The position numbers and the translations under genes are program-made. A DNA stretch of 64,000 nt from a virus: positions 1 to 64,000 of the IMG/VR virus record IMGVR_UViG_3300020419_001178; one strand, 5' to 3'. The notes under the pieces are model-generated. The model was not told where the DNA came from, did not search any database, and saw only the letters and a program-made list of their open reading frames with translations. Below, piece by piece: positions 32,441 through 55,713 of this stretch (position 1 is the first letter of the stretch; every line of letters starts with the position of its first letter).

Positions 32441-33538
32441 ATGGGTACTTTAAGACTTAAAAGAGGGACTAAAGAAGCACTGCAAACCAACCCCGGTTTT
32501 ACACCCGCGGAAGGTGAACTTGTTTATACAACAGACAGTAAAGAAGTATTTGTAGGTGATGGAGCCACACAAGGTGGTGTAGCAGTTTCAGTATCCACAC
32601 AAAACCTAGAAGACTTAGGTAACGTTCAAGCACTAGCGGCGCAAAAAGACCAAATTTTAGTATATACAGGGTCTCAATGGGCGGCAACAAACAATCCAGC
32701 AGTAGACATACGTGGTAACATATATGGTGATGATTCCACACTATTAGTTGATGCTATCAACGGAAAAATAGTAGGACCAGTAGAAACTTCAACAGTAGCG
32801 GCAACTACACTAACAGGAAACCTTACAGGTGATACTAACGGATCACATACAGGCGGAGTGGTTGGTGATGTTGTAGGTAATGTAGTAGGAACTATCACTG
32901 GCTCATTAACAGGTACTATGACAGGTTCAGTATTTGGTGATGACAGTTCAGGACTACTAGTTGACGGTATTAACAATCAAATTACTGGCTCCATTAATGC
33001 TATGAATGTTTCAACATTTGATAACACAATTAACATTGGTACTAAATCAGCCAATCCAGCTTTTAATTATAATACAACATCAACAAACGGTTCTTTTCCA
33101 CAGTCAACTATACAGATTAGAAATGTACACAATGATGTAACAGCAGACGAATTAGGTATTTTCAGATCCAGAGGAGTTTTAGGAGCAAGAACAACTGTAC
33201 AAGCAAATGATGTAATTGGTGGATTTGGTTGGTCAGCATATGACGGAGCATCAGTTTTAATTGGTGCGAACATGAATAGTGTTATTAATAGTGTTTCTAC
33301 AAATAACCTATCAGCAGATTTAATTATTAGAACAAGAAACGGTGCTATATCAACATATGGCGAAGCAATGAGAATTAAAGCAGATAAAGGTGTGACAACA
33401 GCAAGTTACGTCCAGTTTGGTAGTTTGACAACTACACAAAGAGATGCTTTGACTCCTGCTAATGGGATGGTAATTTACAATTCAAGTGATAATAAATTCC
33501 AAGGCTATGAAAACGGTGCTTGGGTTAATTTAATTTAA
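32441..33538 (+). CDS. Tail-fibre-like structural protein
   Basis: A 365-residue structural protein. The N-terminus LRLKRGTKEALQTNPGFTPA and GELVYTTDSKEVFVGDG match the small attachment module of many phage fibres. Residues about 122-185 are an imperfect TGxxTGxxxG repeat (for example GTITGSLTGTMTGSVFGDD), suggesting a beta-helical shaft. The C-terminus NGMVIYNSSDNKFQGYENGA is a common fibre-tip motif. It sits next to the accessory island, as host-range genes often do. Confidence 0.8.
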   Translation: MGTLRLKRGTKEALQTNPGFTPAEGELVYTTDSKEVFVGDGATQGGVAVSVSTQNLEDLGNVQALAAQKDQILVYTGSQWAATNNPAVDIRGNIYGDDSTLLVDAINGKIVGPVETSTVAATTLTGNLTGDTNGSHTGGVVGDVVGNVVGTITGSLTGTMTGSVFGDDSSGLLVDGINNQITGSINAMNVSTFDNTINIGTKSANPAFNYNTTSTNGSFPQSTIQIRNVHNDVTADELGIFRSRGVLGARTTVQANDVIGGFGWSAYDGASVLIGANMNSVINSVSTNNLSADLIIRTRNGAISTYGEAMRIKADKGVTTASYVQFGSLTTTQRDALTPANGMVIYNSSDNKFQGYENGAWVNLI

Positions 33539-34109
33539 ATAACTTACCCTTATCATACAATTCAACAATTTCGTTAAAAGGTATATCTGTACTAAATTGA
33601 CAGTGGAATCTATAGTCGTTTGTTTCATTTGTAGCATTATGATACTCTAACAAATTAAAGATTACAGCAGTATGATCTGTATAATTTATAGTTTCTTGTA
33701 ATTTAAATTTAGCATTATCGTAATCACTGTATTCTCCTTCTTCTAAGGTCCAAAACTTTGTTGGGCCAAAGCTACTTATAGTCAATGGGTATACAGGAAT
33801 GCTTATAACACTTACTCTTGGAACAAAAGGATTCTTTTGGTCAACATGTATCTTTCCTATAGTAAAAGGTGTTTGTCCTAGTATTTCATAATGTACATCA
33901 ACTAAAAATTTCTTGCCTATCTCATCCATTAGTTCTGTAGGAATAAGATCTCTAGGACAATACCAATTCCAGTCAGTCTTTCCATACTTGTCTGGCTTTG
34001 TGCCAGTGTAAGCGAAACTGTCTTTATGATTAAGTATATGATCTGCTAACTTAGATCTTGTTTCTTTACTAAAAGTTAACTCTTTAATGTGCTGAAAATA
34101 TGGTCTCAT
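33525..34109 (-). CDS. 2OG-oxygenase-like protein
   Basis: A 194-residue protein read leftward, with GGAG before its ATG. IGKIHVDQKNPFVPRVSVIS supplies a possible HxD, and YHNATNETNDYRFHCQFSTD a distal histidine and arginine, the order of a double-stranded beta-helix Fe(II) oxygenase. The match is weaker than for its relatives in the island. Last gene of the five-gene unit starting at 37342; it overlaps the convergent fibre gene by 14 bases. Confidence 0.5.
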   Translation of the reverse strand: MRPYFQHIKELTFSKETRSKLADHILNHKDSFAYTGTKPDKYGKTDWNWYCPRDLIPTELMDEIGKKFLVDVHYEILGQTPFTIGKIHVDQKNPFVPRVSVISIPVYPLTISSFGPTKFWTLEEGEYSDYDNAKFKLQETINYTDHTAVIFNLLEYHNATNETNDYRFHCQFSTDIPFNEIVELYDKGKLFKLN

Positions 34110-34684
34110 TTATTACTCCGTAGTGGATAATTATTTTTAATTTTTTCTTTTATTTCATCAAAAGTATTATGGGTAAACCGTAACTTAAATAATATCCTAT
34201 CTTGATCTTTTTGAACTGGAACACTATGATTGATACTTACATTTAACAATGCAACATCATAGTATTCATCAGCATGTCCCTCAAAATTTATAGGAGTTTG
34301 TTCTCCTTCTAGGATAAAATTTATAGCACATAAAGTGCCTACATCAGTATGTACAGGCACTTCAGAACCTTGTGTCTGCGTTAAAAAGTTTGCTTTGATT
34401 GTATCAGTTTCACAAATCTTTTTGAATAAAGATGTTAATCGTCTACTCTCTGAGAGATCAAATTCTGTGACTTTAGGTTCTCTTGAAGCATTCCACGACC
34501 TTTGCTCTGTCCACCATTTGTTATTTTTTTCAATAAATGACATATCGTCATTGTAATCCAATCCTTCATTATATATCCATGTCAAGGTATCTTTATTAAT
34601 TGGTTGGTACTGAAATACCTTAGACTCTTCTAACAGCTTTTTCTTATCATGATCTACTACAAATTTAAAAATACAATCTTCCAT
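34106..34684 (-). CDS. 2OG-Fe(II) oxygenase-like protein
   Basis: A 192-residue protein with EVPVHTDVGTLCAINFILEG (HxD), LLNVSINHSVPV (distal His) and DRILFKLRFTH (Arg), a complete candidate facial triad of a 2OG-dependent oxygenase. It is ATGA-coupled to its downstream neighbour and follows the adenylating enzyme. Substrate unknown; hydroxylation of a small molecule or amino-acid residue is plausible. Confidence 0.65.
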   Translation of the reverse strand: MEDCIFKFVVDHDKKKLLEESKVFQYQPINKDTLTWIYNEGLDYNDDMSFIEKNNKWWTEQRSWNASREPKVTEFDLSESRRLTSLFKKICETDTIKANFLTQTQGSEVPVHTDVGTLCAINFILEGEQTPINFEGHADEYYDVALLNVSINHSVPVQKDQDRILFKLRFTHNTFDEIKEKIKNNYPLRSNK

Positions 34685-34685: not shown

Positions 34686-35387
34686 TTAATTTTTCCTACC
34701 TAAGTAATACATCCTATTACCCATATCTAAAGCTACTATATCTCCAGTCGCAAACCAGTCATCATATATACTTGTTGATCCTTTCACATGTAACTCATGA
34801 TCAATTATCTTCCAATCACAATAATATGTATCTCCTAAAATTGTATATCCTTCGAAACATCTTTCCTTTACATAGTTAACTTTATCTATACTATCAAATT
34901 CTATGTTAATTGTTATAGGACCTATTTCACTCATTCCCCAGTTAGGTTGTACAATAGCTCCTTTAGAAACAAAAGCTTCTATCATATCCCAAGATACAGG
35001 ATCACTGCCGCCTAATATTCTTTTACCTGTCAAATCACAATCTTTAAATCCTTTAGTATTCATTACTGCTGTCATTTGTGCTGGTGCTAAAAATGTATGG
35101 GTATAATTTTTAAAAATGTCTAAAAACTTAAATGGATTAAATTTCATTGCTGTCACTTCTGCGTTTACACTAAAAGCCGGTAAACTTTGTGCTAATAATC
35201 CGCCAGCATGGGTCATACGTGTCACTGTAAGTATCTTACTTGTTACTGATATCTTTTGGGCATCAACTGCTATACGATTTGCTTCTTTAAGGTTTTCTGG
35301 TGTTCTAAAAATGTCCTTGGACGGGCCTGTTGTCCCACTACTAGAAATGGTTACACCATTTTCTAATACGTGCTGAAAATCAACCAT
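34686..35387 (-). CDS. Miniature adenylate-forming (ANL) enzyme
   Basis: A 233-residue ANL-superfamily-like protein; ATG 35387 with GGAG upstream is chosen, overlapping the GMP reductase stop by eight bases. It has ITISSSGTTGPSK-like ATP loop residues (SSSGTTGPSK, 15-24), PNWGMSEIGPITINIE (the GxTE-like block) and DWFATGDIVALD (the TGD motif). Standard ANL enzymes have 500-600 residues; here most of the N-terminal region and the C-terminal lid domain are missing. It would activate a carboxylic acid as an acyl-adenylate if active. Confidence 0.75.
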   Translation of the reverse strand: MVDFQHVLENGVTISSSGTTGPSKDIFRTPENLKEANRIAVDAQKISVTSKILTVTRMTHAGGLLAQSLPAFSVNAEVTAMKFNPFKFLDIFKNYTHTFLAPAQMTAVMNTKGFKDCDLTGKRILGGSDPVSWDMIEAFVSKGAIVQPNWGMSEIGPITINIEFDSIDKVNYVKERCFEGYTILGDTYYCDWKIIDHELHVKGSTSIYDDWFATGDIVALDMGNRMYYLGRKN

Positions 35388-36420
35388 TTTCGTATTTCTC
35401 CAAGCTATTATTAATTTGATTTTTGACTTTAATGAACGTACAAAGCTCATATAAGCGGTTTATATGCTCTGCGCCTACATACGTACAAGTACTCCGTAAA
35501 CCCCCTTGTAACTGCTTTAAAATGCGTTTAATAGGCCCTTTACAGGGTATTAATAGGTCTCTGCCTTCGTTAGGTTTGTAATCCATTTCGTCTGGATTTG
35601 TTCTGTCATACATTTTGGTACTTCCTAGCCCATACAAGTTTACAAACCGTTTTCCGTCAATTTCAATTACATTATCACACTCGTCACTTCCACTAACCAT
35701 GCCTGCTATCATAACTATTTTAGCTCCCGCTCCAATTGCTTTGGCTACGTCTCCTGGAGTTACACACCCTCCATCAGAAATAATATCTAACCCAAACTTT
35801 GTTGCTTCAGGATAACAATCCATAATAGCACTTAATTGTGGTACTCCTACTCCTACTTCAGATCTTGTCTTACAAGCGGCTCCACTACCTACACCTACTT
35901 TTATTAAATTTGCTCCTGCCATTGCTAATTTTTTAATTACTTCGGGCGTAGCTATGTTTCCCGCACAGATTTTAATGTGCGGAAATTTTTTTCTAAACTG
36001 TGTAATAGTTTCTAACATACCTTCTACATTAGCATACACATTAGCAATGTCAATATTGATTAGTCCAATGTCGGGAAACTGTGAAATAATTTCTATAGTC
36101 TTTTCCCTGTCTTTAAGACGAACACCACTTGTAATAGCAATGTATCTTCTATCACTTATTGATCGTAAGTGTTTTAGATGTTCTTCTAACTTATATTCTT
36201 TGTGTATGAAAGTAAAAAATCTCATCGGTGTAAGTATGTTTGCTATCTTATAGGTACCTGTGCTTGTCATATTAGCAACAGCTATAGGATGTACAGTGGT
36301 ATCCAACCAATCTATTTCTATTTGTATATCTTTTCTCGTAAGAGATTTTGTTGCTTCTTTAGGCTCTATTAAAACATCTTTAAAATCTAATTTTATTTCT
36401 TCTTTAACTTTAGTATTCAT
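35380..36420 (-). CDS. guaC: GMP reductase / IMP dehydrogenase family
   Basis: A 346-residue enzyme, the length of E. coli GuaC (347). KLDFKDVLIEPK-type N-terminus (LDFKDVLIEP), AGNIATPEVIKKLAMAGANL and KVGVGSGAACKTR with the catalytic Cys (C183), followed by ISDGGCVTPGDVAKAIGAGA. No CBS domains, unlike IMP dehydrogenase, so GMP reductase (GMP to IMP, NADPH) is preferred. It is the second gene of a late unit behind a radical SAM gene. Confidence 0.8.
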   Translation of the reverse strand: MNTKVKEEIKLDFKDVLIEPKEATKSLTRKDIQIEIDWLDTTVHPIAVANMTSTGTYKIANILTPMRFFTFIHKEYKLEEHLKHLRSISDRRYIAITSGVRLKDREKTIEIISQFPDIGLINIDIANVYANVEGMLETITQFRKKFPHIKICAGNIATPEVIKKLAMAGANLIKVGVGSGAACKTRSEVGVGVPQLSAIMDCYPEATKFGLDIISDGGCVTPGDVAKAIGAGAKIVMIAGMVSGSDECDNVIEIDGKRFVNLYGLGSTKMYDRTNPDEMDYKPNEGRDLLIPCKGPIKRILKQLQGGLRSTCTYVGAEHINRLYELCTFIKVKNQINNSLEKYENG

Positions 36421-37342
36421 TTTCGTTTAATTTCACATGTTCGTAAAAAGGAGCTAACTTCCAATCTTTTGTAATTCTGCCTCTACGAATACTTCCAGGG
36501 TCAGGAATACCTACTTCATTATCTGTATCCCAATCTGTTATTTTTACCCATTGCCCTTTATATCTTTCTTTGTTAGTTGGATCTAAAGGAAATTCTATTG
36601 TTCCAGGTTCTACTACATTACTATATCTATGGGGCTTGCCGTAATGACTCCAAATGTAATCTTCTGTATGACCTAGTTGGTCAGCACATAGTTTGACCAT
36701 GTCAGCCATCTTTAAATTTTCATCTGCTTCTTTTTGATACCTTCCAAGTTGTCCTACATTCTTAAAACGCAAAGTTATATCAGGAACTTTTTCTCTAGTA
36801 ATTAACTCAAGAGCCGCCGCTGGTGCTTGTTCATTTATACCTTTAACTAAAATTATTCCTGCGTTCATGTTAAATTTATCTTTACAATTTTTAAATGCTT
36901 TAATTTTTTTTGTAGCACATCTCATTTCGTCTATTTGCTCGTACCAGTCATCATTTTCTATTCCGTTTAGACTCATATAAACATGCTTTAATCCAGTAGC
37001 TTCTATCTTGTTAACAAAGGATTCACTTGACATTCTAAGTCCATTTGTAATTAAAATACAGTTATGTCCGTGTTTGAATCCAATGTTTATAAAATCTATT
37101 AGTTGTGGATGGAGTGTTGGTTCGGCTCCTACTATACGTATCATAATTGGGTTAGGAAGTTTGGCAATAAATTCTTCATATGGTTTAATTTCCATATCTG
37201 GTATGAATCTGTTTGGAACGTAGCAGTTTTTACATTCCATATTACAGCGATGAGTGATATCGGCCACAACATCAAAAAAAGAATTATTCTCCGGCTCGAT
37301 CTCATAATAATTTAGGTTATCAAGATTTATCTGTTTTGTCAT
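36410..37342 (-). CDS. Radical SAM enzyme
   Basis: A 310-residue radical SAM protein with the cluster motif ITHRCNMECKNCYVP (CxxxCxxC, about residues 33-40), followed by IRIVGAEPTLHPQLIDF in the place of GGEP, and ILITNGLRM. It belongs to the MoaA/NifB/PqqE-like group. First gene of a five-gene leftward unit behind a late promoter at 37363-37370. Substrate unknown. Confidence 0.85.
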   Translation of the reverse strand: MTKQINLDNLNYYEIEPENNSFFDVVADITHRCNMECKNCYVPNRFIPDMEIKPYEEFIAKLPNPIMIRIVGAEPTLHPQLIDFINIGFKHGHNCILITNGLRMSSESFVNKIEATGLKHVYMSLNGIENDDWYEQIDEMRCATKKIKAFKNCKDKFNMNAGIILVKGINEQAPAAALELITREKVPDITLRFKNVGQLGRYQKEADENLKMADMVKLCADQLGHTEDYIWSHYGKPHRYSNVVEPGTIEFPLDPTNKERYKGQWVKITDWDTDNEVGIPDPGSIRRGRITKDWKLAPFYEHVKLNENEY

Positions 37343-37362: not shown

Positions 37363-37370
37363 TATTTATA
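37363..37370 (-). promoter_or_regulatory. T4-type late promoter box TATAAATA
   Basis: A perfect TATAAATA on the minus strand, predicted start near 37357, serving the five-gene unit 37342-33525. It is back-to-back with the plus-strand box at 37374. Confidence 0.7.
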
Positions 37371-37373: not shown

Positions 37374-37381
37374 TATAAATA
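37374..37381 (+). promoter_or_regulatory. T4-type late promoter box TATAAATA
   Basis: A perfect TATAAATA five bases before ATG 37387. With T4 geometry (-13 to -6) the start falls on the A of the ATG, predicting a leaderless late transcript. Confidence 0.7.
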
Positions 37382-37386: not shown

Positions 37387-38082
37387 ATGTATGATGTGAA
37401 CAAATGGCAAGAATTATATACTCCGCACACCGACTATCAAAAAAGTCAGCATAGTGTAGTCAGTTTACCTGACAAGTATGATATAGACTTGAAAGAAATA
37501 GATAAAGGAATTGATACTGTATTAAGTAATTATGAAATGGTTGCTTATACTGTAGACACACCGGTAGGAAAAATACAAGTTCCAGGATACTACGGACTTT
37601 GCTTTAAAACTAAACCTAAATCAAATGACCCTTTAGGTGAAGGATTGACAAGTAATATCCATTCTCACTCTAATATGAATCATCCAGTAGATATCGAATA
37701 TACTGAAAAAAGTCCAGCTTGGTTTCCCTATTTAGATGAAATAACAAAAAAGTTTAGAGGACAAGTTACGCAGATTAGACTTATAAAATTGGAAGCAGGA
37801 CATGACTTGTTAAGTAGAGAAAAAACTTCCCACATTGACTATCCATGGTATAGAGGTATAAGGATTCATATTTGTCTAACACCTGATGTTGATTATGTAT
37901 GGAGAGTTTTAGATAAAGATTATCATTTTCAAAGATCTAGCAAAATGAATTATTTAGATACAGGTAAACCTCACGGTGCCGTAAATAATCATAATGACAA
38001 AGATAGATATGTTTTAAATATAAATTTAGCACCAAAATTAGATTTACATATTGACGAGCAAATAGAAAAACAAATTATTTAA
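37387..38082 (+). CDS. Aspartyl/asparaginyl hydroxylase-like oxygenase
   Basis: A 231-residue protein, the only plus-strand gene between two leftward units. TSHIDYPWYRGIRIHICLTP (HxD) and GKPHGAVNNHNDKDRYVLNI (distal His and Arg) match the aspartyl/asparaginyl beta-hydroxylase fold. No Shine-Dalgarno precedes it and a late promoter predicts a leaderless message. Its end overlaps the convergent radical SAM gene by eight bases. Confidence 0.7.
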   Translation: MYDVNKWQELYTPHTDYQKSQHSVVSLPDKYDIDLKEIDKGIDTVLSNYEMVAYTVDTPVGKIQVPGYYGLCFKTKPKSNDPLGEGLTSNIHSHSNMNHPVDIEYTEKSPAWFPYLDEITKKFRGQVTQIRLIKLEAGHDLLSREKTSHIDYPWYRGIRIHICLTPDVDYVWRVLDKDYHFQRSSKMNYLDTGKPHGAVNNHNDKDRYVLNINLAPKLDLHIDEQIEKQII

Positions 38083-39583
38083 AAATATTTAATTTTCTTT
38101 GTTTATATTCTTCTATTCTATCTCTGTTTGTTTGACTATACTTCCTTTTTATATACATCTCGTCTAAACTTAAACTTAAAAGTTCATCAGTATCTTCAAA
38201 TTTTCCTATATATTCCGTGATATCAAAGTTAGAAATTTTTTGCTTGAAAAAATAATCTTTGTGATACATTTCTCCAAACTCTGAAGCCTCTTTAAAGTTG
38301 GTTATATCACTTTCCCAAATTAACGCCCTATTATCAAGTTTGTTATTAAGCCTACCCATAGGATCTGCTTTAAACGGAACGTTGTATCCTTTTTTTATTG
38401 ACCAATCAATTATCTCTTTATTTTTAGTCGGAAAGTATCCAAATTTTTGTGCGTCTACACTAAAGTCACTGTGTGTCTTTGTATCTGGGTCGTCACTAAT
38501 ATGTAAGCCCCAATAAAAGAAACTATCCCAATTTTTATCTAACCAGTCTAAGCTATCATACCAAGACTTAACAGGCTCATTAGGCAATCCAGCTATCATT
38601 CCAATTGTGCCTCTATATAAACCTAACCTAGCATTAAACTCATCTCTTATCCATAGTAAACCTTCTTTTATCTTATCGGGATGCATTCCTTTTCCTATAG
38701 CTTTTGCCGCTTCTGGATGAAATGTTTCTATTCCATAAAAATGCCCCCAACATCTTGCTCTCACTAATAATGCGATTTGTTGTGGTCTTGAAATCACTAA
38801 ATCTAATCTAATAAAACAAGTAAAGTTAGGCTCAAAGGGTAAACGTTCTACAGCTAAAGCTAGTTTTTCTATCTTACTATCTCTATCATTAAACGTATCG
38901 TCACTAATAATATAGTTGGTTGTTCCCCATTTCTCATAATTGTGCATCATTTCATTATACAAATCATCCTGTGTCCTACTATAGTCTTCTTTCACCCCTA
39001 AGAAGGCGTAATTACAATACTTACATTTGAATCTACATCCTCTACTTGTTTCTAATGTAAGAGCTTCATGGGGTTCTATGAAATCATTTGGATGGTACAC
39101 ACAATCATATTTGTCTATGTCTAATCCTTTATAATGATGATTAGCATCTATCAATAGACTATTAGGTGCCCAATCAGGATATTTTCCTATAGGTTTAGGT
39201 CCATTGTTAAACATCCATTCTAACACAGGAGTAATACTATGTTCGCTATAACCAAATACCATACAGTCTGCTCCATAATCCATTTGGTAAGGTTTAGGAC
39301 CTCCCATTAAGATTTTGGCCTTAGGGTATTCTTTTTTTAAAAAAGTAATTTTATCGTTGACCATTTCGTCCATCATCCATAAATTACCAAAGGCAAGTAA
39401 ATCAACTTCGTAAGGCAACGAGTCAATAAATTGTTTCACTTCTTTGTTTGACCATCTAGACAGCCAATCTATTACTTCGACAGTCCATCCTTGAGAACGC
39501 ATCATATCGGCAATTTTATACGCACCCATGGTACGTCTAATTATATCGTCACCACTTTCATTAAAAATTACTGCGTAATTCAT
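38075..39583 (-). CDS. B12-binding-type radical SAM enzyme
   Basis: A 502-residue protein; ATG 39583 overlaps the methyltransferase stop, and the longer frame to 39622 is not needed. The N-terminal 140 residues look like a Rossmann cobalamin-binding domain (DLLAFGNLWMMDEM, AKILMGGPKPYQMDYGADC). Then ETSRGCRFKCKYCNYAFLG carries CxxxCxxC, with ISDDTFNDRDSKI and GLPNEPVKSW typical of B12 radical SAM proteins. These often methylate unactivated carbons or rearrange rings. Last gene of an eight-gene leftward unit. Confidence 0.85.
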   Translation of the reverse strand: MNYAVIFNESGDDIIRRTMGAYKIADMMRSQGWTVEVIDWLSRWSNKEVKQFIDSLPYEVDLLAFGNLWMMDEMVNDKITFLKKEYPKAKILMGGPKPYQMDYGADCMVFGYSEHSITPVLEWMFNNGPKPIGKYPDWAPNSLLIDANHHYKGLDIDKYDCVYHPNDFIEPHEALTLETSRGCRFKCKYCNYAFLGVKEDYSRTQDDLYNEMMHNYEKWGTTNYIISDDTFNDRDSKIEKLALAVERLPFEPNFTCFIRLDLVISRPQQIALLVRARCWGHFYGIETFHPEAAKAIGKGMHPDKIKEGLLWIRDEFNARLGLYRGTIGMIAGLPNEPVKSWYDSLDWLDKNWDSFFYWGLHISDDPDTKTHSDFSVDAQKFGYFPTKNKEIIDWSIKKGYNVPFKADPMGRLNNKLDNRALIWESDITNFKEASEFGEMYHKDYFFKQKISNFDITEYIGKFEDTDELLSLSLDEMYIKRKYSQTNRDRIEEYKQRKLNIFK

Positions 39584-40203
39584 TTTACCTTTGCTACCAT
39601 ATTCCAACATGGGTAAGCCCAATAATCGCTGAAAGATGGTAATGTTTCCTTTTCTAATAATACAATATTAAAATTTTTAAAAGTATTTAATAAATCTTGT
39701 TCTTCTAATTGCGGAGGAGTATATTCAACACTTCCTAATTTATTTTCTAATCTACCTGATTGATTACAGTAAACTCCGTTTTTCATTAAAACCTTTTGTA
39801 CTATATTTGCGTACTGTTCTCTATATTCGTGTGGTACAAAATGATATAATCCAAAATCTATTATTACATCATATTTGTTCTCTGTGTTTAATTCAAATAA
39901 ATCAATACATTGAAATACACAATCACTTTGTTTTTTCTTAGCATTATCTATTGCTTTGTCAGAAATATCAATTCCATGTACTTCATATCCCATTTTGCTT
40001 AAAGGTATGCTATTACGACCTTCTCCGCAACCTAAATCTAAAATTTTACTTTCCTTAGGAAAATAACTTATGAACTTTTCCAACACACTTGCTGGTGCTT
40101 TCCCCCATGCTGGATTTCCTGCTTCATAAATAGTGTTCCAAAAATTAGGTAACTTAATCTCATAGTCTTCGAGATGCTTGTTAACAGGATATTGTGTTGA
40201 CAT
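39580..40203 (-). CDS. SAM-dependent methyltransferase
   Basis: A 207-residue class I methyltransferase: KILDLGCGEGRNSIPLSKMG (motif I, about 54-73), VHGIDISDKAIDNAKKK (motif II) and YDVIIDFGLYHFVPHEYR (post-II). The proximity to a B12 radical SAM enzyme and oxygenases suggests tailoring of a common product. Overlaps its neighbours by one to four bases. Confidence 0.85.
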   Translation of the reverse strand: MSTQYPVNKHLEDYEIKLPNFWNTIYEAGNPAWGKAPASVLEKFISYFPKESKILDLGCGEGRNSIPLSKMGYEVHGIDISDKAIDNAKKKQSDCVFQCIDLFELNTENKYDVIIDFGLYHFVPHEYREQYANIVQKVLMKNGVYCNQSGRLENKLGSVEYTPPQLEEQDLLNTFKNFNIVLLEKETLPSFSDYWAYPCWNMVAKVK

Positions 40204-47173: not shown

Positions 47174-48019
47174 ATGAGAAAACCTATATCATTAAAAGAA
47201 CTTAAAGGTTCACAATACAGAACAGTGGATTTTTATCTTTCAAAATCCTGTAATAAATCGTGCCACTACTGTACTGCTTGGACTCTTGAAATGAGATACC
47301 TACACACAAATATGGATTTGGTGCGTACTATCCTAAAAGGATTATCTCCTTACAAAACAAGAATATGTTTACTTGGAGGAGAACCAGGGCTTATAAAAAA
47401 TCTTGACGAAATAATAGCAGAGATAAAGAAACATGACAATTTGATACCACAGGTATTATCAAATAGTCTAGTTAGAAAATTTTATCCACACATACTTGAA
47501 GACCCTGAAATCATTTATATAGAACATTTAGTATTAGACTTTTATGAAGATAAAATAGAAAAACTAGGCAACTGGCCGTTTTTGCCAAGAAATGATAAAA
47601 ACAATTATAATTTAATAATAGAAACTCCTGGTTATTTCAAATACAGAGATAGATTTGATCTTACAGAAATAGATCACGAAAATACAGAATTTAAAGAATA
47701 TAATTCTAGATCACCTGACTTCCATAGTGATCACGATATAATACAAGCACCAGAGATAGAACGGAGAATATGTGCTAAATTTCCGCAGGTTCCTGTTTTT
47801 GATTTTGAAATACAAAAGATCAGGCACTGCAGTAGGAAAGCAATTGACGGTTCTAGAGAATTTGATATAACTGTAGAAAATATACAAAAAATGATGGAAT
47901 ATAAATTATTTGACTTTGAAAAATATTGTACTACTTGTATGGATATTATTCCTCCTAGACCAGAGGCTAGGAGATTAGAAATACTAGAAAAATTAGCATT
48001 GGAAAAAACACCAGCATGA
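47174..48019 (+). CDS. Radical SAM enzyme
   Basis: A 281-residue radical SAM protein: FYLSKSCNKSCHYCTAWTLE (CxxxCxxC), CLLGGEPGLIKNLDEI (GGEP) and C-terminal cysteines in IRHCSRK and YCTTCMD that could hold an auxiliary cluster. First gene of a three-gene plus-strand unit with the carbamoyltransferase. Substrate unknown. Confidence 0.8.
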   Translation: MRKPISLKELKGSQYRTVDFYLSKSCNKSCHYCTAWTLEMRYLHTNMDLVRTILKGLSPYKTRICLLGGEPGLIKNLDEIIAEIKKHDNLIPQVLSNSLVRKFYPHILEDPEIIYIEHLVLDFYEDKIEKLGNWPFLPRNDKNNYNLIIETPGYFKYRDRFDLTEIDHENTEFKEYNSRSPDFHSDHDIIQAPEIERRICAKFPQVPVFDFEIQKIRHCSRKAIDGSREFDITVENIQKMMEYKLFDFEKYCTTCMDIIPPRPEARRLEILEKLALEKTPA

Positions 48020-49530
48020 ACATATATTCAGTAGCTTTAAATATTCATGACCATAATACATACGACGGAACATTTCACAACCAAGTTGAGAGACATAACA
48101 GGATTAAACATAATCTAAATTATGAATGGTCACATGACCCTAGTCCTAGTAAAAAATTTTTTAATGAACATGTATTAGACAAATTTAAAAGTAGAGACGA
48201 AAATAATATATTTGCATTCACAGTATCTAACTTAGGCCAAGAATTTGTAACAGATTTAATTGATGAAAACTTTCCAAATAAAGACTTTTTAAAATTTAAA
48301 CCCAAAAGTTTATGGGAACCATTTCATAACGAGTTTGTTTACTACATTGACCATCATCAATCACATGCTACCTATGCCTTTCTTACTTCGGGATATCCAG
48401 AATCTGATATACTTGCTATAGATGGAAGAGGTTGGCAATTTAATTGTATTTTTATAGGAAAAGATGGTATTATAAAAGACCTATCAAAAAAGATTCCTAT
48501 TGGAGGACTATGGAATAGATTAGCTCAAGACATAGGGTTTAAGTATCTTGACGCAGGCAAAGTAATGGGATTAGCAGGATACGGAAAGTATAATTATCAG
48601 ACAGATGCTATGATTGAAACTTATTTAATGAATCCTAATCATACACTACCTAGTTTTGCTACTGAAGTAATTAAAAATAATAAAAGAGAAGATATAGCTT
48701 ATACATTACAGTTTAAAACTATAGAACTTATAAAAAAGTACGTGTATCCACTTAAGACTTGTGATAATATTTGTGTAGCGGGCGGAGTAGCATACAATGG
48801 TTACATGAACGAAGAACTGACAAAGCACTATAAAAATGTACACATTCCTCCAGCTATAGGAGATGAAGGTCAGGCCTTAGGCACTTATATGCATGCCGAC
48901 TATTATCTAAATGATAATATACATAAGCCTAGTGTGTTTTCTGGCAAGGAACATGTTATAGATACAAATCTGTTTACAGGAATGAGCTTTGAAAAATGGC
49001 CATTTGAAAAATTAGTAAGTATGGTAGCAGAAGAAATTGCTAACGGTAAAATAGTAGGATGGTATCAAGGAAAATCTGAAAGTGGAAATAGAGCTTTAGG
49101 TAATAGAAGCATACTAGCCGATCCACGCAATCCTAATATAAAAGATATCATAAACAGTAAAATTAAGAAACGCGAAGACTTTAGACCATTTGCTCCTAGT
49201 GTTTTAGAAGAACATTATCAAGAATATTTTGACACCAGTCAACCTAGTCCATACATGTCTAGAATTATGCCAGTCAAAGTAGATACAGTACCTGGAATTA
49301 CACATGTAGATGGTACTGCTAGAATACAAACAGTGAATAGATCATTCAATAAACGATATTATGACTTAATTACTGCTTTTTATAAACATACAGGAATACC
49401 TATGCTTTTGAACACCAGTTTTAATTGCCAGGAACCTATAGTAGAAACACCAGCAGATGCTTTACGTACTTTTAAAAATTGTGGTTTAGACTTATTAGTA
49501 TTAGGAGATTATTTAATATGGAAGTTATAA
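48016..49530 (+). CDS. NodU/CmcH-type carbamoyltransferase
   Basis: A 504-residue carbamoyltransferase using carbamoyl phosphate and ATP. VYYIDHHQSHATYAF (metal His), ILAIDGRGWQFNCIFIGKDG, VAGGVAYNGYMNE, GDEGQALGTYMHADYY, SESGNRALGNRSILADPRN and IPMLLNTSFNCQEPIVETP match the ASKHA/NodU core and the C-terminal domain. Length fits the family (about 500-600). It carbamoylates a hydroxyl, as in nodulation factors, antibiotics or, in some phages, hydroxymethyl bases. Coupled to a radical SAM gene. Confidence 0.9.
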   Translation: MNIYSVALNIHDHNTYDGTFHNQVERHNRIKHNLNYEWSHDPSPSKKFFNEHVLDKFKSRDENNIFAFTVSNLGQEFVTDLIDENFPNKDFLKFKPKSLWEPFHNEFVYYIDHHQSHATYAFLTSGYPESDILAIDGRGWQFNCIFIGKDGIIKDLSKKIPIGGLWNRLAQDIGFKYLDAGKVMGLAGYGKYNYQTDAMIETYLMNPNHTLPSFATEVIKNNKREDIAYTLQFKTIELIKKYVYPLKTCDNICVAGGVAYNGYMNEELTKHYKNVHIPPAIGDEGQALGTYMHADYYLNDNIHKPSVFSGKEHVIDTNLFTGMSFEKWPFEKLVSMVAEEIANGKIVGWYQGKSESGNRALGNRSILADPRNPNIKDIINSKIKKREDFRPFAPSVLEEHYQEYFDTSQPSPYMSRIMPVKVDTVPGITHVDGTARIQTVNRSFNKRYYDLITAFYKHTGIPMLLNTSFNCQEPIVETPADALRTFKNCGLDLLVLGDYLIWKL

Positions 49531-50162
49531 ATGAAAACTATTGGAAAGTATGGTGGGAAGCTATACAACACAGTCATGAGATAAAAGATATACTTTACAG
49601 CGTTGGTCCTGATCAAATGGATTCAAAAGTTCATCTTGTTGATAGTATTCCGTTAGATGAAATGAAAAAGTTTAACGATTTAAAAATACACTTATATGGT
49701 GGTTGGTATGGATATCCTCTAATTAATCTTTTACTTAATAAATTTTTAAATATAGAACATATAACAAATATAGACTTAGACGAAAAAGCATTAGATCTAT
49801 CAAGAAAATACACCCACGCTATGAGCTTAGAGAACAAAGTCTTTTTTAAACACAGAGATGTTAAAGATAAAATAGAAACATCTTACTATAAAGACAAAGA
49901 TGTAAGATTAGTTATTAATACATCAAGCGAACACATGGCAGATCTGCCTGATTTAATAGCAAATAAAGATTACACTCCTAATTGTGTATTTGCTTTACAA
50001 AGTAATAATATGTTTCATGTAAAAGATCAACATATAAACTGTTCAAATAATTTAGATGAATTCGTAAGTAAAACTGGGCTTACTAAGATATGGTTTGCTG
50101 ACACTTACAAAATGTCAAACGGATATGAAAGATATACTGTTATTGGCAATCATCGAACTTAG
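49518..50162 (+). CDS. Class I methyltransferase-like protein
   Basis: A 214-residue protein; ATG 49518 with TTAGGAG is chosen over an earlier frame start. KIHLYGGWYGYPLINLLL is motif I-like, ITNIDLDEKALDLSRKYTHA motif II-like and VRLVINTSSEHMADL a post-II segment. The catalytic residues are not diagnostic. Possibly a methyltransferase of the carbamoyltransferase unit. It ends against a convergent gene. Confidence 0.6.
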   Translation: MEVINENYWKVWWEAIQHSHEIKDILYSVGPDQMDSKVHLVDSIPLDEMKKFNDLKIHLYGGWYGYPLINLLLNKFLNIEHITNIDLDEKALDLSRKYTHAMSLENKVFFKHRDVKDKIETSYYKDKDVRLVINTSSEHMADLPDLIANKDYTPNCVFALQSNNMFHVKDQHINCSNNLDEFVSKTGLTKIWFADTYKMSNGYERYTVIGNHRT

Positions 50163-50829
50163 ATTTTAACCAATCAAAATCATTTATTAACCGAAGATCA
50201 GACCCCCTAGAAAAGCCAAACTCCATACCAGCATTAGCACCTCGAATCGCATCTTCACGAAATCTTCCATTACCTGTTGTGGTCCATACTTTAAGTCTTT
50301 CATTAGTTTCTCCTTCTTGTTGTCTATCTATCACTTTACTACTTAATTTAGCACATTCTCTAAAAGCACTTTTCCATGTATTAAATGAATCAGTATCGAA
50401 AGCTGTTATGTTACTTACTTGATCAAATACAATGAAGTTGTCTGAAATGCTTGTTGTCATATCATAACTGTTTACATCCATATTCTTTGTTAAGTTTGTT
50501 GGAAGTAACTTGACTCCACCGTAACCATAAGTAAGATTGTTTACAGGATTCATACTTTTGTATACATGAACAATATTTTCAATTTTTGAAGTTACAAAAT
50601 AATTAAACATAAAGTCTTCTGTAATTACTGCGTCACCATCTACTACAAAAAAATATCTTGTATTAGCTTTTTTAGCCGCTTCTATATGAGCTTTGTGTAT
50701 TCCTTTAACCCCGTCTATCCTTTTAACTCTATCTCCAAAAACTCCTGACGTATTAAATCTATTATACAAATCATTATAATTTTTATCTGCGTGAGGCTCG
50801 TTATAACTTATAAAAACTATATCATGCAT
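50140..50829 (-). CDS. GT-A-like glycosyltransferase
   Basis: A 229-residue protein related to 52183-53082: both start DI(V/I)F(I/L)SY(N/D)EPxAxKNY and share a VVDGDAVIT or TVDGDNTI acid motif (DxD-like), plus YGYGGVKLLP and YGNGGLKCWP. These suggest GT-A nucleotide-sugar transferases. Last gene of the leftward unit from 55713, coupled to the radical SAM gene by eight bases. Confidence 0.65.
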   Translation of the reverse strand: MHDIVFISYNEPHADKNYNDLYNRFNTSGVFGDRVKRIDGVKGIHKAHIEAAKKANTRYFFVVDGDAVITEDFMFNYFVTSKIENIVHVYKSMNPVNNLTYGYGGVKLLPTNLTKNMDVNSYDMTTSISDNFIVFDQVSNITAFDTDSFNTWKSAFRECAKLSSKVIDRQQEGETNERLKVWTTTGNGRFREDAIRGANAGMEFGFSRGSDLRLINDFDWLKSKFDDCQ

Positions 50830-52186
50830 TTTTTATTTCCTTGTAAAATTCTTTGTATTCTGGAAATGTTTTTACAAAATTTAGATCTCTTCTTTTGTCA
50901 TATTCATTAACAAATTTGTAAAACAACTTTTGTGATTGTCTTTGCTCTTCTTTAAATTCTTTGTTTTTAAATCTATACAAAACGTCAGCTATAATTCTTT
51001 TTAGCTTGGCTGTTTCTATATCTCCAAAGCCACCAAGATTAGTATTTTCAATCATAAAATCTACTGCTGGAATTAAATGTGTTTTAACCAATTCTTCACT
51101 TGCTACTTTTACATCTAAAAATCCAGGATTACGCACATACGGAATATCAACCTTTATTCTATGATCTTCTCGGTGTTTCCTATAATATGTAGTTTTAAGA
51201 TGTAATATCCAGATTAAAAAATTTTTAAATGTTGGTAAACTTAAAATATTAAAGGCACTCATAAAGCTGATTCTACTGTTTGTATTCCTAGCAAAATATT
51301 CAATATTATCCTTAAACAAATACCAATCCATACCATAACGACTATATTCTGCTTGAGCTCCACTGCTTTCCGCACTTGTAAATAACGTAAACTGTTTAAT
51401 ACTTTTTTTATTTTCTAATTCATTAATACTTTTAGTAAATTTTTTCCATAAATCTTTTGGAGGACATCCATTAGAATTAATAGCAAAATCCAAATGCGGT
51501 TGTGGATTTTCAATCAAATAATTAATAACCTTTTGTGTATGCTTACTCAACAATGGTTCACCACCTGTGATCCTAAAAACTTTCATATGTTTTACTGCTT
51601 CAGGAAACCATTTCCAAAATGCTTCTATATAAGGATTGTGTTCTCTTTCGAGTATTTGTACTTCTTCAGGATCTATAGCATTATATTTCCATATTCCTAA
51701 ATCGTAATGTCCTTCTTGTTTTACTTCTTCTGCCCATTTACTGCTAAAGGCAGGCCCACAGTAAGAACATTTAAAATTACATACATTGCTAAAACTTATT
51801 TCAACATATCTAGGATAAAAGTCTTCATGACCTGTTGAGTTAGAGATACTATCAAAATCATCCCAACTAAAGTGATCAGCACTTTTGTATATTCTATCAC
51901 TAAATTTATCGGTGTTATCTTCAATTCTCCAACAGTAATCACATTCCTCAGGACGTTCATTATTGAGCATTCTACGTCTTGTATTTTTTTTAAACTCTGT
52001 ATTATGTAAAACGTTTGGATTATTTTTTAAATCATCTAAAGGAATCTTGTGAGCTTTGACATGATGACAACTATGGTTTATTCCTGACCCTAAGTGTATG
52101 GTTACCTGTGTCCATTTTGCTAAACAAAATCCACAACCTACTTCATTAAGTTTATCTTTTACTTCAGCCGGATTAGCTCTTATCAT
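50822..52186 (-). CDS. Twitch/SPASM-type radical SAM enzyme
   Basis: A 454-residue radical SAM protein. Cysteines in GCGFCLAKW, SCHHVKAHK and ECDYCWRIED precede the core, where SNVCNFKCSYCGPAFSS holds CxxxCxxC and RITGGEPLLSKHTQKV the GGEP. The extra N-terminal cysteines suggest auxiliary clusters of the twitch/SPASM kind. Flanked by the two paralogous glycosyltransferase-like genes, with overlaps of 4 and 8 bases, so the three likely act together. Confidence 0.85.
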   Translation of the reverse strand: MIRANPAEVKDKLNEVGCGFCLAKWTQVTIHLGSGINHSCHHVKAHKIPLDDLKNNPNVLHNTEFKKNTRRRMLNNERPEECDYCWRIEDNTDKFSDRIYKSADHFSWDDFDSISNSTGHEDFYPRYVEISFSNVCNFKCSYCGPAFSSKWAEEVKQEGHYDLGIWKYNAIDPEEVQILEREHNPYIEAFWKWFPEAVKHMKVFRITGGEPLLSKHTQKVINYLIENPQPHLDFAINSNGCPPKDLWKKFTKSINELENKKSIKQFTLFTSAESSGAQAEYSRYGMDWYLFKDNIEYFARNTNSRISFMSAFNILSLPTFKNFLIWILHLKTTYYRKHREDHRIKVDIPYVRNPGFLDVKVASEELVKTHLIPAVDFMIENTNLGGFGDIETAKLKRIIADVLYRFKNKEFKEEQRQSQKLFYKFVNEYDKRRDLNFVKTFPEYKEFYKEIKNA

Positions 52187-53082
52187 GATATAAATGATCT
52201 ACCATAATTTTGATTGACAGTTTTAAAAAATGTGCTTTGTTCTTCGTTTAACTGTAATACAGAAATAGGTAGCTGTAGTTGATTTATCAATTCAGTTCCT
52301 AAATTCCATATTTCGTTGTGTAGAATATCACCAGGTAACTCATCTCGGTTACCCCAAATTTCTTCTAAATGGTCGAAGTCTCTTACATTTATATAATCCC
52401 AGTCTGTGAGTAATGTCATTTGTAAGCCTTCTCTTGCTCCGTATATTGCCCAATCTCCGTTTTCAACATCACTACCAACCATAGTCCAGATGTAAAGCAT
52501 GTTTAAGTTCTTTGGATGACCTTGTAAAAATTGTTCATGTGTAGGTCTTACTCCTCTATCTGTAGCTAATTTTACTCCTTCTCTAAATCCTGCTCTCCAT
52601 GCTTGTTTAGGAGTAGTGTTGTTATGTGTCAAACTAAAACAGCTATTCTGTTGGATATATCGTGCGTCCCAACAAAAATCTACCTTAGCATGGATATTAT
52701 CAGGATCAGCATTTTCATGTGTTTTCATGTTTAGAACATATTCTTTAGGCCAGCACTTTAGACCTCCGTTTCCATACATCAGTCCATTAATAACATTTTT
52801 GCCACACCAGCTTATAACACTATTAGACAAGTTTTCATTCTCTTCAAGGTCTATTACTTGATCTAAAAATTCTTGCTTTATAGTATTATCGCCATCTACA
52901 GTTATAAATCTATCAGTTTCACTTAATTTAGCACAGGCTTTATGTGCCGCATCGGACCCTTTTATCCCATGTACACGTTTGGCCCAAGGAACCTTGGTCA
53001 ATAAGTCTGCGTAATTTTTTTCAGCATTTGGTTCATCATAACTTAAAAAAATTATATCTAGTTCTGCTATTTTAATTTTCAT
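52183..53082 (-). CDS. GT-A-like glycosyltransferase
   Basis: A 299-residue protein, paralogue of 50140-50829, with ELDIIFLSYDEPNAEKNYAD, DRFITVDGDNTIKQ (DxD-like) and QAWRAGFREGVKLATDRG. It flanks the same radical SAM gene on the other side. Acceptor and donor unknown. Confidence 0.65.
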   Translation of the reverse strand: MKIKIAELDIIFLSYDEPNAEKNYADLLTKVPWAKRVHGIKGSDAAHKACAKLSETDRFITVDGDNTIKQEFLDQVIDLEENENLSNSVISWCGKNVINGLMYGNGGLKCWPKEYVLNMKTHENADPDNIHAKVDFCWDARYIQQNSCFSLTHNNTTPKQAWRAGFREGVKLATDRGVRPTHEQFLQGHPKNLNMLYIWTMVGSDVENGDWAIYGAREGLQMTLLTDWDYINVRDFDHLEEIWGNRDELPGDILHNEIWNLGTELINQLQLPISVLQLNEEQSTFFKTVNQNYGRSFIS

Positions 53083-53249
53083 AAATCACCTCTTATCACA
53101 CTATCTCCAAACATTAAATATATTAACGTTTCGTATTTTTCGTCTATTTCAACCCATAATTCTCCTACGAATTCATTTGTAAAAGCTCTACAAGGAAATG
53201 CTTTTTGAATTCCGTAATATGGTCCAAGATGTTTACAAATAATTTTCAT
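53079..53249 (-). CDS. Small hypothetical protein
   Basis: A 56-residue frame not covered by longer ORFs. ATG at 53249, inside the end of the upstream gene, and TGA 53079-53081 overlapping the ATG of the next gene, so it is coupled on both sides. MKIICKHLGPYYGIQKAFPC, then WVEIDEKYETLIYLMFGDS. Beta-rich by eye. Unknown function. Confidence 0.5.
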   Translation of the reverse strand: MKIICKHLGPYYGIQKAFPCRAFTNEFVGELWVEIDEKYETLIYLMFGDSVIRGDL

Positions 53250-53760
53250 TAGTTTCTCTGGTTACACAATCAGCGAATACATTTTTTGTATATACGCTGT
53301 AAGTTTCAATGTTATTGAAAGGAAACATTTCTTTTGATCCTATCTTAAAAGTAAAAGTATTTAACAAGTAATGTGGGTCTCCTTTTTTTGTAACATAAAA
53401 AGTTATTTCATTTAAGTTCTTTGGTGTGTCTAATGTTTTAACATAACACTTGTTCCTACTTCTATCAACAACAAATTCTATGTCATGGAATTCATCTTTG
53501 GGTTTATATAATTCATTAAGCAAAAAAGTCTGTTGTTCTTGATCAACATTTTTCTTTAATTCAAAGGATTTATTTCTTTTATTATACTGGACTGCCCAAT
53601 TTATAAAATTCTCTTTAAGCGTTTGAAATGGTTTAGCTTGATCATCAGTAATTTCAATATGTTCATAATTAGAATTAATATTAGGACCTATACTAAAAAT
53701 TTCTCCGCTTTCCTTATTGAAGCAAACGTATTGTTGTGTTTTCACTTTGATATCAGCCAT
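53233..53760 (-). CDS. Hypothetical protein
   Basis: A 175-residue soluble protein, MADIKVKTQQYVCFNKESGE, with beta-rich and lysine-rich parts (NKRNKSFELKKN). It overlaps the GT gene upstream by 8 bases. It could be a structural or fibre-assembly component rather than a pathway enzyme. No motif recognised. Confidence 0.6.
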   Translation of the reverse strand: MADIKVKTQQYVCFNKESGEIFSIGPNINSNYEHIEITDDQAKPFQTLKENFINWAVQYNKRNKSFELKKNVDQEQQTFLLNELYKPKDEFHDIEFVVDRSRNKCYVKTLDTPKNLNEITFYVTKKGDPHYLLNTFTFKIGSKEMFPFNNIETYSVYTKNVFADCVTRETNENYL

Positions 53761-54553
53761 ATGCTTTTTCTAACCTTTCACAAAAGCTATTTTCAGTATA
53801 ATGTAATATTCCATGTTGTAAATAGTTACCTATCTTAAGTTGCTTATCATTGTTAAAATAATAGGGTATAGATTCAGTCCAATCTTGTTGTGCTACTTGC
53901 CAATCCTGTACTTGCGACTTCATATGAACAAAACTTGCGGGAGCAAATATATAATTTTCTATATTCTCGTCTAATAAAGTAATGGCATGATTAAGATCCA
54001 TACTGCTAACCTTAGGAGTTAGTTTCGGAGTATATATTTTGTAATAATCTTTATAATTTCTACAAACATGTTCTAGTTTTAAGTAATATTTCAAAGCTAC
54101 ATCATTTTGTTGGAAGTAATGAAAAGCACAGTATACATTAGGAATATTATTTTCAACAAATGTTTTCCTATAATAGTTGTTTGTTACTAATTTGTTTTTA
54201 TATGTTCTAACATTACTTGTAAAACATACGTCATAATTACTCAAATAATTCCACCAATGGCTAATATCGCTTAAGAATAGCATGTCCGTATCTAGTAATA
54301 CTGTTTCTTTGTAAGGTGTACTGTGAAAAGCCTTCCATCTAATATCTGTTCTATAAAAATCAACTTTATTTCTATCCGAAATTGGAATATCTATAATTTT
54401 ATCAAATACATCCGTATATTCATCTGGAACCTTATCTCCAGTTAGTAGAGAAACATTGTTAATTGTTTGGGTATGTTTAATACTTTTAGCACAAAGGTAA
54501 GCCTGTTTTATATATTCAGTACCTGTCGCTATAATTATATAACCTTTAGACAT
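53753..54553 (-). CDS. GT-A glycosyltransferase-like protein
   Basis: A 266-residue protein with the DxD motif in TVLLDTDMLFLSDISHWW and an N-terminal Rossmann-like strand (GYIIIATGTEYIKQAYLCA), typical of GT8-like retaining transferases. Related to its neighbour 54546-55376 (both have DVFDKII and VLDTD). A duplicated pair near the tail genes suggests modification of host receptor glycan or a tail fibre. Confidence 0.7.
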   Translation of the reverse strand: MSKGYIIIATGTEYIKQAYLCAKSIKHTQTINNVSLLTGDKVPDEYTDVFDKIIDIPISDRNKVDFYRTDIRWKAFHSTPYKETVLLDTDMLFLSDISHWWNYLSNYDVCFTSNVRTYKNKLVTNNYYRKTFVENNIPNVYCAFHYFQQNDVALKYYLKLEHVCRNYKDYYKIYTPKLTPKVSSMDLNHAITLLDENIENYIFAPASFVHMKSQVQDWQVAQQDWTESIPYYFNNDKQLKIGNYLQHGILHYTENSFCERLEKAYG

Positions 54554-55376
54554 TCAAATGTCTTTCCAAACTAAACTTATTCATCACATGAATATTCATA
54601 TCTTTGACAGTAGATAGTATGTACTCATTTGTTATATTTTGTTTTTGCGTCAAAAATGTTAAAGTGTCATCTTTAATCTTATGTAATACATCTCTATCTA
54701 ATGTGTAATACATTTTTCCAGGTAGTGACTTTGTCCAGGAACCTTCTTCAAATCCATTCATAATGTGTATACCTATACTAAAAAGATGATCATTTCTAAA
54801 ATTGCGACTTCCTAAATCGTACACATCACTATAGTATTTCCAATTATCGTAAAGATGTTTTAACAGATCAAAAAATATCTTGTTTTCTTTACTCTTAGTA
54901 AAATAAAAACAAGTAGCCCAATAGAAAGGAATTCCTTTATCGTTTATATAATCAAATTCACTGTAGTTTCTCCATTGGCATAAGTCTACTCCGTGTTTGT
55001 AAATCTGAAAATCATAATCTAAGTCAAAAGCATGTTTAAAATTATCATTACAAATTATATAATCTGTATCTAATACTAATGTTTTGTCATATGGGCTTAG
55101 ATAATACGCATTATGTCTTTCGTTATTTTTAAAATGTAGGCTTTGAGAATAACCAAACCCGTCATTATATCGTTTTTGATTATCCTGTGCGTCATTTATT
55201 GTTATAATTTTATCAAAGACATCGTGATACTGTAAATCTATTTTATCAAATGTAGATGTTACTAAAGACACAGGTAAATTTAAATGCCTTTTTGAACGAT
55301 AGGCAAGTTCTATTGCTTGTTTTATATAATCAATAGAACCATTATTGTTAGCAAAACAGATAATTCCATTAGACAT
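54546..55376 (-). CDS. GT-A glycosyltransferase-like protein
   Basis: A 276-residue paralogue of 53753-54553, with GIICFANNNGSIDYIKQAIE, DVFDKIITIND and the DxD motif in KTLVLDTDYIICNDNFK. Overlaps of 8 bases on each side show it belongs to the unit from 55713. Confidence 0.7.
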   Translation of the reverse strand: MSNGIICFANNNGSIDYIKQAIELAYRSKRHLNLPVSLVTSTFDKIDLQYHDVFDKIITINDAQDNQKRYNDGFGYSQSLHFKNNERHNAYYLSPYDKTLVLDTDYIICNDNFKHAFDLDYDFQIYKHGVDLCQWRNYSEFDYINDKGIPFYWATCFYFTKSKENKIFFDLLKHLYDNWKYYSDVYDLGSRNFRNDHLFSIGIHIMNGFEEGSWTKSLPGKMYYTLDRDVLHKIKDDTLTFLTQKQNITNEYILSTVKDMNIHVMNKFSLERHLNV

Positions 55377-55713
55377 CTACTAAACCTTTTACACTACGTC
55401 TAGTACTAAGAATCTTATAATCTTCGTTATACTGATTTGTTGCTTCAGTGTATTTCTGAATCAATGCCTCAGTAAAATCATTAAGGTCATTAATCTCAAT
55501 AGGAGTTTGGTTATCATCAACTATAATAGTTTTAGTAGTTTTATTTAAAAGCATAGAACAGAAGTTTAACATCTCTCTGTTTGCTGTAAACGTTCCACCA
55601 AGATAGTAAATAATTAGGTTTTCTTGATACTTTTCGGACAGAATTCTCTTTTGATTATTCAGTGTTACAGAATAATTCGAAAACTCTAACGCTTTTTCAA
55701 GAGATTCTTCCAT
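55369..55713 (-). CDS. Conserved phage protein beside tail genes
   Basis: A 114-residue charged helical protein, MEESLEKALEFSNYSVTLNN, ending KILSTRRSVKGLVDV. AGGAG precedes the ATG, and a weak late-like box (ATTAAATA, 55740-55747 minus) lies upstream. I recall similar proteins adjacent to fibre genes in T4-like marine phages; function unknown. It marks the edge of the accessory island. Confidence 0.7.
   Translation of the reverse strand: MEESLEKALEFSNYSVTLNNQKRILSEKYQENLIIYYLGGTFTANREMLNFCSMLLNKTTKTIIVDDNQTPIEINDLNDFTEALIQKYTEATNQYNEDYKILSTRRSVKGLVDV

Follow-up and report, generated by a model that had tools for sequence, protein, structure and literature searches.

Large variable islands among tail-fibre genes, with conserved flanks, are already known in T4-like marine phages. 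In pelagimyophages such an island, the host recognition cluster, lies between VrlC and gp14 and carries GT8-type glycosyltransferases (GTs) and added radical S-adenosylmethionine (SAM) cassettes (PMC7029224). The DNA analysed here (the window) comprises bases 1-64,000 of virus record IMGVR_UViG_3300020419_001178, which totals 145,741 bases, and positions 33,525-55,713 hold a similar island, flanked on both sides by tail-fibre genes (on the right by tail-fibre/virion genes at 55,749-62,112). A sequence-only reading of the window had described some 25 genes in this place; the island and its setting were borne out, and the count of open reading frames (ORFs) is 28. Like the pelagimyophage cluster, the island has a GT8-type glycosyltransferase (GT266) and radical SAM genes, four in number. 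A recurrent core of four genes (GNAT-sm85-AT4-AMPb; Table 1) and the promoter-bearing gene exchange found here are not described in the available part of that account, and no description of a core cluster of such make-up was found in the open-licence literature. Our preferred reading, a tentative one, is that of a late-expressed modular biosynthetic locus that would decorate tail fibres, the putative target, with a tailored acyl-amine or amino-sugar as putative product.

The phage itself differs from pelagimyophages, which are close to cyanomyophages. Its major capsid protein (gp23-like) shares 71% identity with that of Sinorhizobium phage Phosso and 65-68% with those of large Vibrio, Pseudomonas, Xanthomonas and Erwinia phages; the DNA polymerase relationships agree, and the best-listed relatives of both proteins are Phosso, Atu_ph07, Vibrio 2.275.O and similar phages. 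Judged from its sequence, the source, a marine phage, is T4-like and has no close relative among deposited phages. Within the island the GC content is 0.29-0.34, as compared to about 0.35-0.37 in the flanks, and across relatives the flanks are conserved while the cargo is variable. An assembly chimera was ruled out, as independent contigs repeat the same gene order at 72-98% identity.

A four-gene core of the left cassette

The idea of a single 22-kb pathway did not hold up, as the island consists of three layers that are distributed differently among relatives: a left cassette (33.5-43.5 kb), a middle part (43.6-50.1 kb) and a right block (50.1-55.7 kb). The left cassette contains the core, whose order across loci is GNAT, sm85, AT4, a variable insert and AMPb. 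The scan for AMPb gave 57 viral loci, or 45 when pooled and dereplicated at 95%, the dereplicated counts being the valid ones since some contigs are represented more than once in the pool. Among the 37 dereplicated loci that extend 8 kb or more upstream, ORF clustering placed GNAT in 30, sm85 in 27 and AT4 in 27. An independent scan for sm85 gave 26 loci, 22 of which have AMPb, and the contigs of the other four end before the AMPb position. The smallest cassettes consist of GNAT and AMPb alone, and in loci L255-L261 these two genes stand directly behind a tail-fibre gene on the same strand. Thus the core genes travel together in relatives rather than being scattered independently. It is very unlikely that the island is a collection of unrelated auxiliary genes gathered at a tolerant site with no common pathway: the confinement of most of the middle part to close relatives and the variation of the inserts between AT4 and AMPb speak for such a collection, but the linkage and order of the core recur at 40-95% identity in many loci and motifs are conserved. 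The reading of the set as inactive enzymes found no support, as catalytic motifs are conserved across homologues.

The adenylating enzyme AMPb shares the fold and ATP-site motifs of ANL acyl/aryl-CoA ligases (MenE, FadD), but it has only about 233 aa and lacks a complete N-terminal domain. Its start was corrected to 35,387 (233 aa), the ORF-list start (35450) being too long. Residues S17, G18, W150, G151, M152, E154, D216 and R231 of the ATP-site motifs (P-loop, NWGMSE, TGD and R) are invariant in 32 sequences, and the 32 aligned homologues begin and end at common positions, all without the first ~150 residues and without the C-terminal domain. The AlphaFold2 (AF2) model is confident (pLDDT 93.6), and in Foldseek it fits the central part of MenE-type enzymes (3ipl, E 2.7e-14), with a TM score of 0.78 by the query and 0.42-0.52 by 3ipl. 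On these alignments and this model AMPb is a conserved half enzyme rather than a broken gene. The short ANL form in PDB 4gs5 likewise begins late, yet it has 350-358 aa. A protein of an uncultured Caudovirales phage (A0A6J5L770 in BFVD, an AMP-dependent synthetase/ligase) is half-size as well (214 aa) and has the same fold as AMPb (TM 0.80) at 20% identity. One AMPb homologue (L183, 8958-9671) has an altered P-loop (SSGTKSQMGN) and possibly a changed activity.

The profile of AT4 is closest to the amine transaminases of pyridoxal phosphate fold IV (6fte, 2e-49), in particular the (R)-selective ones, with the catalytic Lys and EGPGF conserved; BCAT and D-amino-acid transaminases are matched as well. 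GNAT and sm85, together with the GDSL gene, were overlooked in the sequence-only reading. The GNAT fold was assigned from Foldseek (probability 1.00, E 6.6e-6; 170 matches reached E 0.001 or below), and sm85 has one hydrophobic segment in all its aligned homologues.

The four-gene core is confined essentially to uncultivated phages in the data searched. AMPb, GNAT, rSAM3 and GT299 had no protein match in 50,697 deposited phage records, the left third of the island had no DNA match among deposited phages, and for GMP reductase and AT4 the matches there were all distant (<60% identity). In 84,980 prokaryote genomes AMPb had three matches, all in metagenome-assembled bins, in a scan by conserved peptide patterns that very distant relatives would escape; the bins of two of the three (L181, L183) carry T4-like polymerase genes on contigs agreeing in length with the AMPb contigs. 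GNAT was absent from 288 of 289 alphaproteobacterial genomes. A bacterial origin of the core was rejected, as in these genome sets AMPb and GNAT were found on contigs of metagenome-assembled genomes only.

Late promoters, the right block and modular exchange

Strand-switching units with their own late promoters had been proposed, and the element TATAAATA is indeed found at the strand switches. It is rarer than expected by chance (4 copies in the 64-kb window versus 12.8), and across 143 kb of the genome it occurs six times, always between genes and 6-33 bp ahead of a co-directional one. Three of the four window copies sit at the island strand switches (37.36-37.38 and 43.54 kb), and variant elements, AATAAATA, precede AspH2 and rSAM2. 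Late expression of the island is supported by these T4-type late promoter elements.

For the right block, a set of 38 relatives with enough sequence past tf304 was available. The GT block lies directly behind the tail-fibre genes, matching in order and strand, in all 38 of them; GT266 was found in 37, GT299 and GT229 in 36 each and rSAM3 in 27 (for GT276, hyp114 and hyp175, see below and Table 1). The right block is thus a group-wide companion of the tail fibres. Because no TATAAATA occurs from tf492 down to GT229 on that strand, the glycosyltransferase block and the tail-fibre genes probably have a common transcript.

The modular cassette exchange that had been suggested is evident from AspH1 and from the comparison with relatives. 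Where AspH1 is missing, the B12rS and rSAM1 genes overlap, by 56 nt in one locus and by 4 nt in the others, and there is no late promoter; loci with AspH1 have an insert of 730-752 bp composed of this gene, on the opposite strand, and late promoter elements, mostly as a divergent pair. AspH1 and its promoters thus appear to have broken up an ancestral operon and to have given the downstream half a new promoter; modular exchange is regarded as shown because this insertion, with its divergent late promoters, splits the operon. The left cassette is also mobile separately from the right block. AMPb distances correlate with those of GNAT (0.60) and GMPR (0.66) more than with those of two backbone genes (hyp218, 0.38; VWA, 0.39), the latter two correlating at 0.72 with each other; as Mantel tests on related sequences, these values are indicative.

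The insert between AT4 and AMPb ranges from nothing up to the present set of 2OGd, 2OGc, MT1, B12rS, rSAM1 and GMPR, and in other phages it holds Trp_halogenase-family (1e-73), SPASM radical SAM or other B12-radical SAM genes. A fixed core with swapped tailoring enzymes resembles bacterial clusters, and relatives with Trp_halogenase-family proteins, a QueC-like ATPase, B12-radical SAM enzymes and a longer AMP-binding protein fit the notion of a viral cluster that releases a free late-acting metabolite, an inhibitor or a signal. However, neither an exporter nor a carrier protein nor a condensing enzyme was identified, and the coupling to the tail-fibre site argues against a free product, which is considered quite unlikely. 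The radical SAM, 2-oxoglutarate (2OG) and GNAT enzymes may instead modify residues of tail fibres, or of another protein, directly, as the presence of Asp/Asn hydroxylase family members and the distant match of B12rS to C-methyltransferase families would suggest; such protein modification leaves the transaminase, the adenylating enzyme and GMP reductase unexplained, no conserved precursor peptide was noticed, and it is held to be decidedly improbable.

The proposed product and its target

Under the preferred reading, decoration of tail fibres, the half-size AMPb would activate a carboxylic acid as an acyl-adenylate, the AT4 transaminase would supply an amine and the GNAT enzyme would form the amide. 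Swappable oxygenases, B12-radical SAM enzymes, methyltransferases and, in relatives, halogenases may vary the group, the adjoining glycosyltransferases would mount the product, most likely on tail fibres, and in this phage the DegT and carbamoyltransferase enzymes may tailor the sugar. The fibre would thereby acquire a fast-changing chemical coat, which would conceal it or change how it binds receptors. The amino-sugar glycan, tail decoration or small molecule named as product in the sequence-only reading are plausible, and the core probably makes an unusual chemical decoration of the phage tail or the host surface. Virion glycans have precedent in mycobacteriophages, whose capsid and tail proteins carry them (Freeman et al. 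2023, as cited in PMC12619734); those phages are unrelated to the present one.

Late expression and the placement of the genes favour the tail fibre as the target. The main rival target is the host envelope, for which the membrane protein sm85 argues: lipopolysaccharide or capsule would be decorated, blocking co-infection or the sticking of progeny to lysed debris. The GT8 glycosyltransferases of pelagimyophage tail islands have been interpreted in this manner (PMC7029224). DegT and carbamoyltransferase enzymes are, moreover, typical of surface glycans. However, late promoters and a position directly behind tail-fibre genes suit virion-directed action better, and the well-known superinfection-exclusion genes of T4 are early. 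Host-envelope modification is rated as rather unlikely, even as the closest competitor.

Several points weigh against decoration of tail fibres. A conserved single-transmembrane protein in the core points to membrane work, for which the host envelope is a better fit than a fibre. Both the first ~150 residues and the C-terminal domain, which carries the usual catalytic lysine, are missing from AMPb, and its activity may differ accordingly. The AMPb-AT4 distance correlation is weak (0.22 in the Mantel test), GT299, GT229 and GT294 are unproven as glycosyltransferases, and many phages have the GT block without the left cassette, so that the two need not be one pathway. The product and the target are inferred. 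DNA hypermodification, another candidate, was set aside on the position of the island and its late promoters.

A broader proposal, somewhat unlikely in our estimate, is that uncultivated phages evolved an amide-forming pathway of their own, whose half-size adenylating enzyme was absent from the cellular genomes searched. Exchange of tailoring enzymes, halogenases and B12-radical SAM enzymes among them, would diversify the product, and tail fibres would gain a decoration of non-standard chemistry. Were this true, phages would possess natural-product-style clusters of their own, as opposed to host-derived metabolic genes, and would use them to vary the host-binding surface. The locus also provides a defined gene set and, in AMPb, a minimal adenylating enzyme that is of interest to biochemistry.

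Gene assignments and minor observations

Most enzyme assignments of the sequence-only reading were upheld (Table 1). Family models agree with the adenylating enzyme, the class IV and DegT aminotransferases and the carbamoyltransferase, and PF04055 recognises all four radical SAM enzymes, including the B12 type and the twitch type. The latter, rSAM3, passes NF033640 with 306.8 bits (curated cut-off 170), and its CX3CX2C motif and four N-terminal Cys are invariant. Of the five or six 2OG-oxygenase-like proteins proposed, six are present: AspH2 matches Pfam above the cut-off, AspH1 weakly, and the other four were recognised by the HxD...H...R motif. GMPR falls below the NCBIfam equivalog cut-off (NF003470, 303.6 bits versus 397), but GMP reductase is still the closest family. 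MT1 was confirmed as a methyltransferase by a family model, and MT2 and the nitroreductase-like NTR are weak. As for the five GT-like proteins, GT266 is GT8-like, GT276, GT299 and GT229 were assigned by DxD, and GT294 matched PHROG unknowns only; no solved structure in PDB was matched by GT299 and GT229.

Table 1. Features of the island and its flanks (n, number of homologues)
Feature	Position	Strand	Evidence
Tail-fibre-type protein, left flank	32441..33538	+	Mtd_N domain, PF18454 9e-11
2OGa, 2OG-Fe(II) oxygenase-like	33525..34109	-	H88-x-D90, H157, R167 conserved, n=17; no Pfam match
2OGb, 2OG-Fe(II) oxygenase-like	34106..34684	-	H112-x-D114, H153, R163 conserved, n=5
AMPb, half-size ANL adenylating enzyme (core)	34686..35387	-	PF00501 (AMP-binding), alignments, AF2, Foldseek
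GMPR, GMP reductase-like	35380..36420	-	PF00478 (IMPDH/GMPR) 1.7e-58; Cys183 (catalytic) invariant
rSAM1, radical SAM	36410..37342	-	PF04055 6.9e-13; C33, C37, C40 conserved, n=18
Late promoter element TATAAATA, for rSAM1 unit	37363..37370	-	
Late promoter element TATAAATA, for AspH1	37374..37381	+	
AspH1, Asp/Asn hydroxylase-like, inserted between B12rS and rSAM1	37387..38082	+	PF05118 weak; H149-x-D151, H196, R207 conserved
B12rS, B12-binding radical SAM	38075..39622	-	PF04055 1.3e-15, PF02310 7.5e-6; C196, C200, C203 conserved, n=26
MT1, SAM methyltransferase	39580..40203	-	PF13649 4.9e-16
2OGc, 2OG-oxygenase-like	40203..40772	-	HxD in all listed homologues but one
2OGd, 2OG-oxygenase-like	40769..41296	-	H77-x-D79, H137, R148 invariant
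AT4, class IV transaminase (core)	41274..42113	-	PF01063 6e-33; K153 invariant
sm85, small single-transmembrane protein, DUF6356-like (core)	42103..42360	-	PF19883 2.8e-4, below cut-off; hydropathy; alignment
GNAT-fold acyltransferase (core)	42344..42904	-	AF2 pLDDT 85.9; profile 3t9y 2.6e-4
AspH2, Asp/Asn beta-hydroxylase-like	42901..43530	-	PF05118 3.8e-5; H129-x-D131, R141, H175 conserved, n=37; PDB beta-hydroxylase 3e-5
Late promoter element TATAAATA, for NTR-GT294-DegT	43541..43548	+	
Variant element AATAAATA, for AspH2	43554	-	
NTR, weakly nitroreductase-like	43581..44459	+	PF00881 0.018, below cut-off
GT294, protein in GT neighbourhood	44456..45340	+	PHROG unknowns only
DegT-family sugar aminotransferase	45343..46416	+	PF01041 2.5e-87
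GDSL/SGNH hydrolase-like	46405..47103	-	PF00657 0.0026, below cut-off; S10, D208, H211 conserved
rSAM2, radical SAM	47174..48019	+	PF04055 3.6e-9; C26, C30, C33
Carbamoyltransferase, NodU type	48016..49530	+	PF16861 1e-67, PF02543 3e-17 (N and C domains)
MT2, weak methyltransferase-like	49479..50162	+	PF01564 6.6e-5
GT229, GT-A-like with DxD	50140..50829	-	Homologous to GT299; D63/D65 invariant
rSAM3, N-terminal-twitch radical SAM	50822..52186	-	PF04055; N_Twi_rSAM NF033640 2.3e-91
GT299, GT-A-like	52183..53082	-	Invariant DxD; homologue of GT229
hyp175	53233..53760	-	Found in 25/38 right-flank relatives
GT266, GT8-like glycosyltransferase	53753..54553	-	Glycogenin 6e-7; D88, D90 of DTD invariant in alignment
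GT276, GT-like with DxD	54546..55376	-	D103/D105 conserved, n=50; found in 38/38 right-flank relatives
hyp114	55369..55713	-	Found in 38/38 right-flank relatives
tf304, neighbour of tail-fibre genes, directly upstream of GT block	55749..56663	-	
tf492, tail-fibre protein	56680..58158	-	phrog_19602 3e-9
TATAAATA ahead of tf492	58184-58191		

Close relatives alone have the full set of the middle part (NTR, GT294, DegT, GDSL, rSAM2, carbamoyltransferase and MT2); elsewhere its members are scattered. A role in defence or as viperins was rejected, as the similarity of the radical SAM proteins to viperins, including the PADLOC matches, is only local; against NF038283 (prokaryotic viperins), rSAM1, rSAM2 and rSAM3 scored at most 38.7 bits (cut-off 180). 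A 60-codon open frame (53,079-53,261, minus strand) lies between hyp175 and GT299, and the gap with this frame is present here and in L003, not in the other relatives inspected; it is possibly a remnant.

In the relatives of the left cassette, a QueC-like ATPase adjoins GNAT in one locus (L247, 8870-9514), and a 474-aa AMP-binding protein lies downstream of the half-size AMPb in another (L248, 3078-4502). A TctA family transporter gene (2.8e-95) and a possible solute-binding neighbour were found near the AMPb cassette in 18 loci of phage contigs (e.g. L239 4083-5519 and L249 5915-6970).

Elsewhere in the window, TGT/DpdA-like, GTP cyclohydrolase I-like and QueE-like radical SAM proteins were noted by reading only at 16,097-25,396, which suggests a putative 7-deazaguanine DNA modification. 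Outside it, the genome has a second cargo region at 130,721-138,742 (L180), with its own TATAAATA ahead of 130,721, which encodes a carbamoyltransferase (PF02543, PF16861), a Trp_halogenase-family protein (1.2e-90) and a DUF6445 protein.

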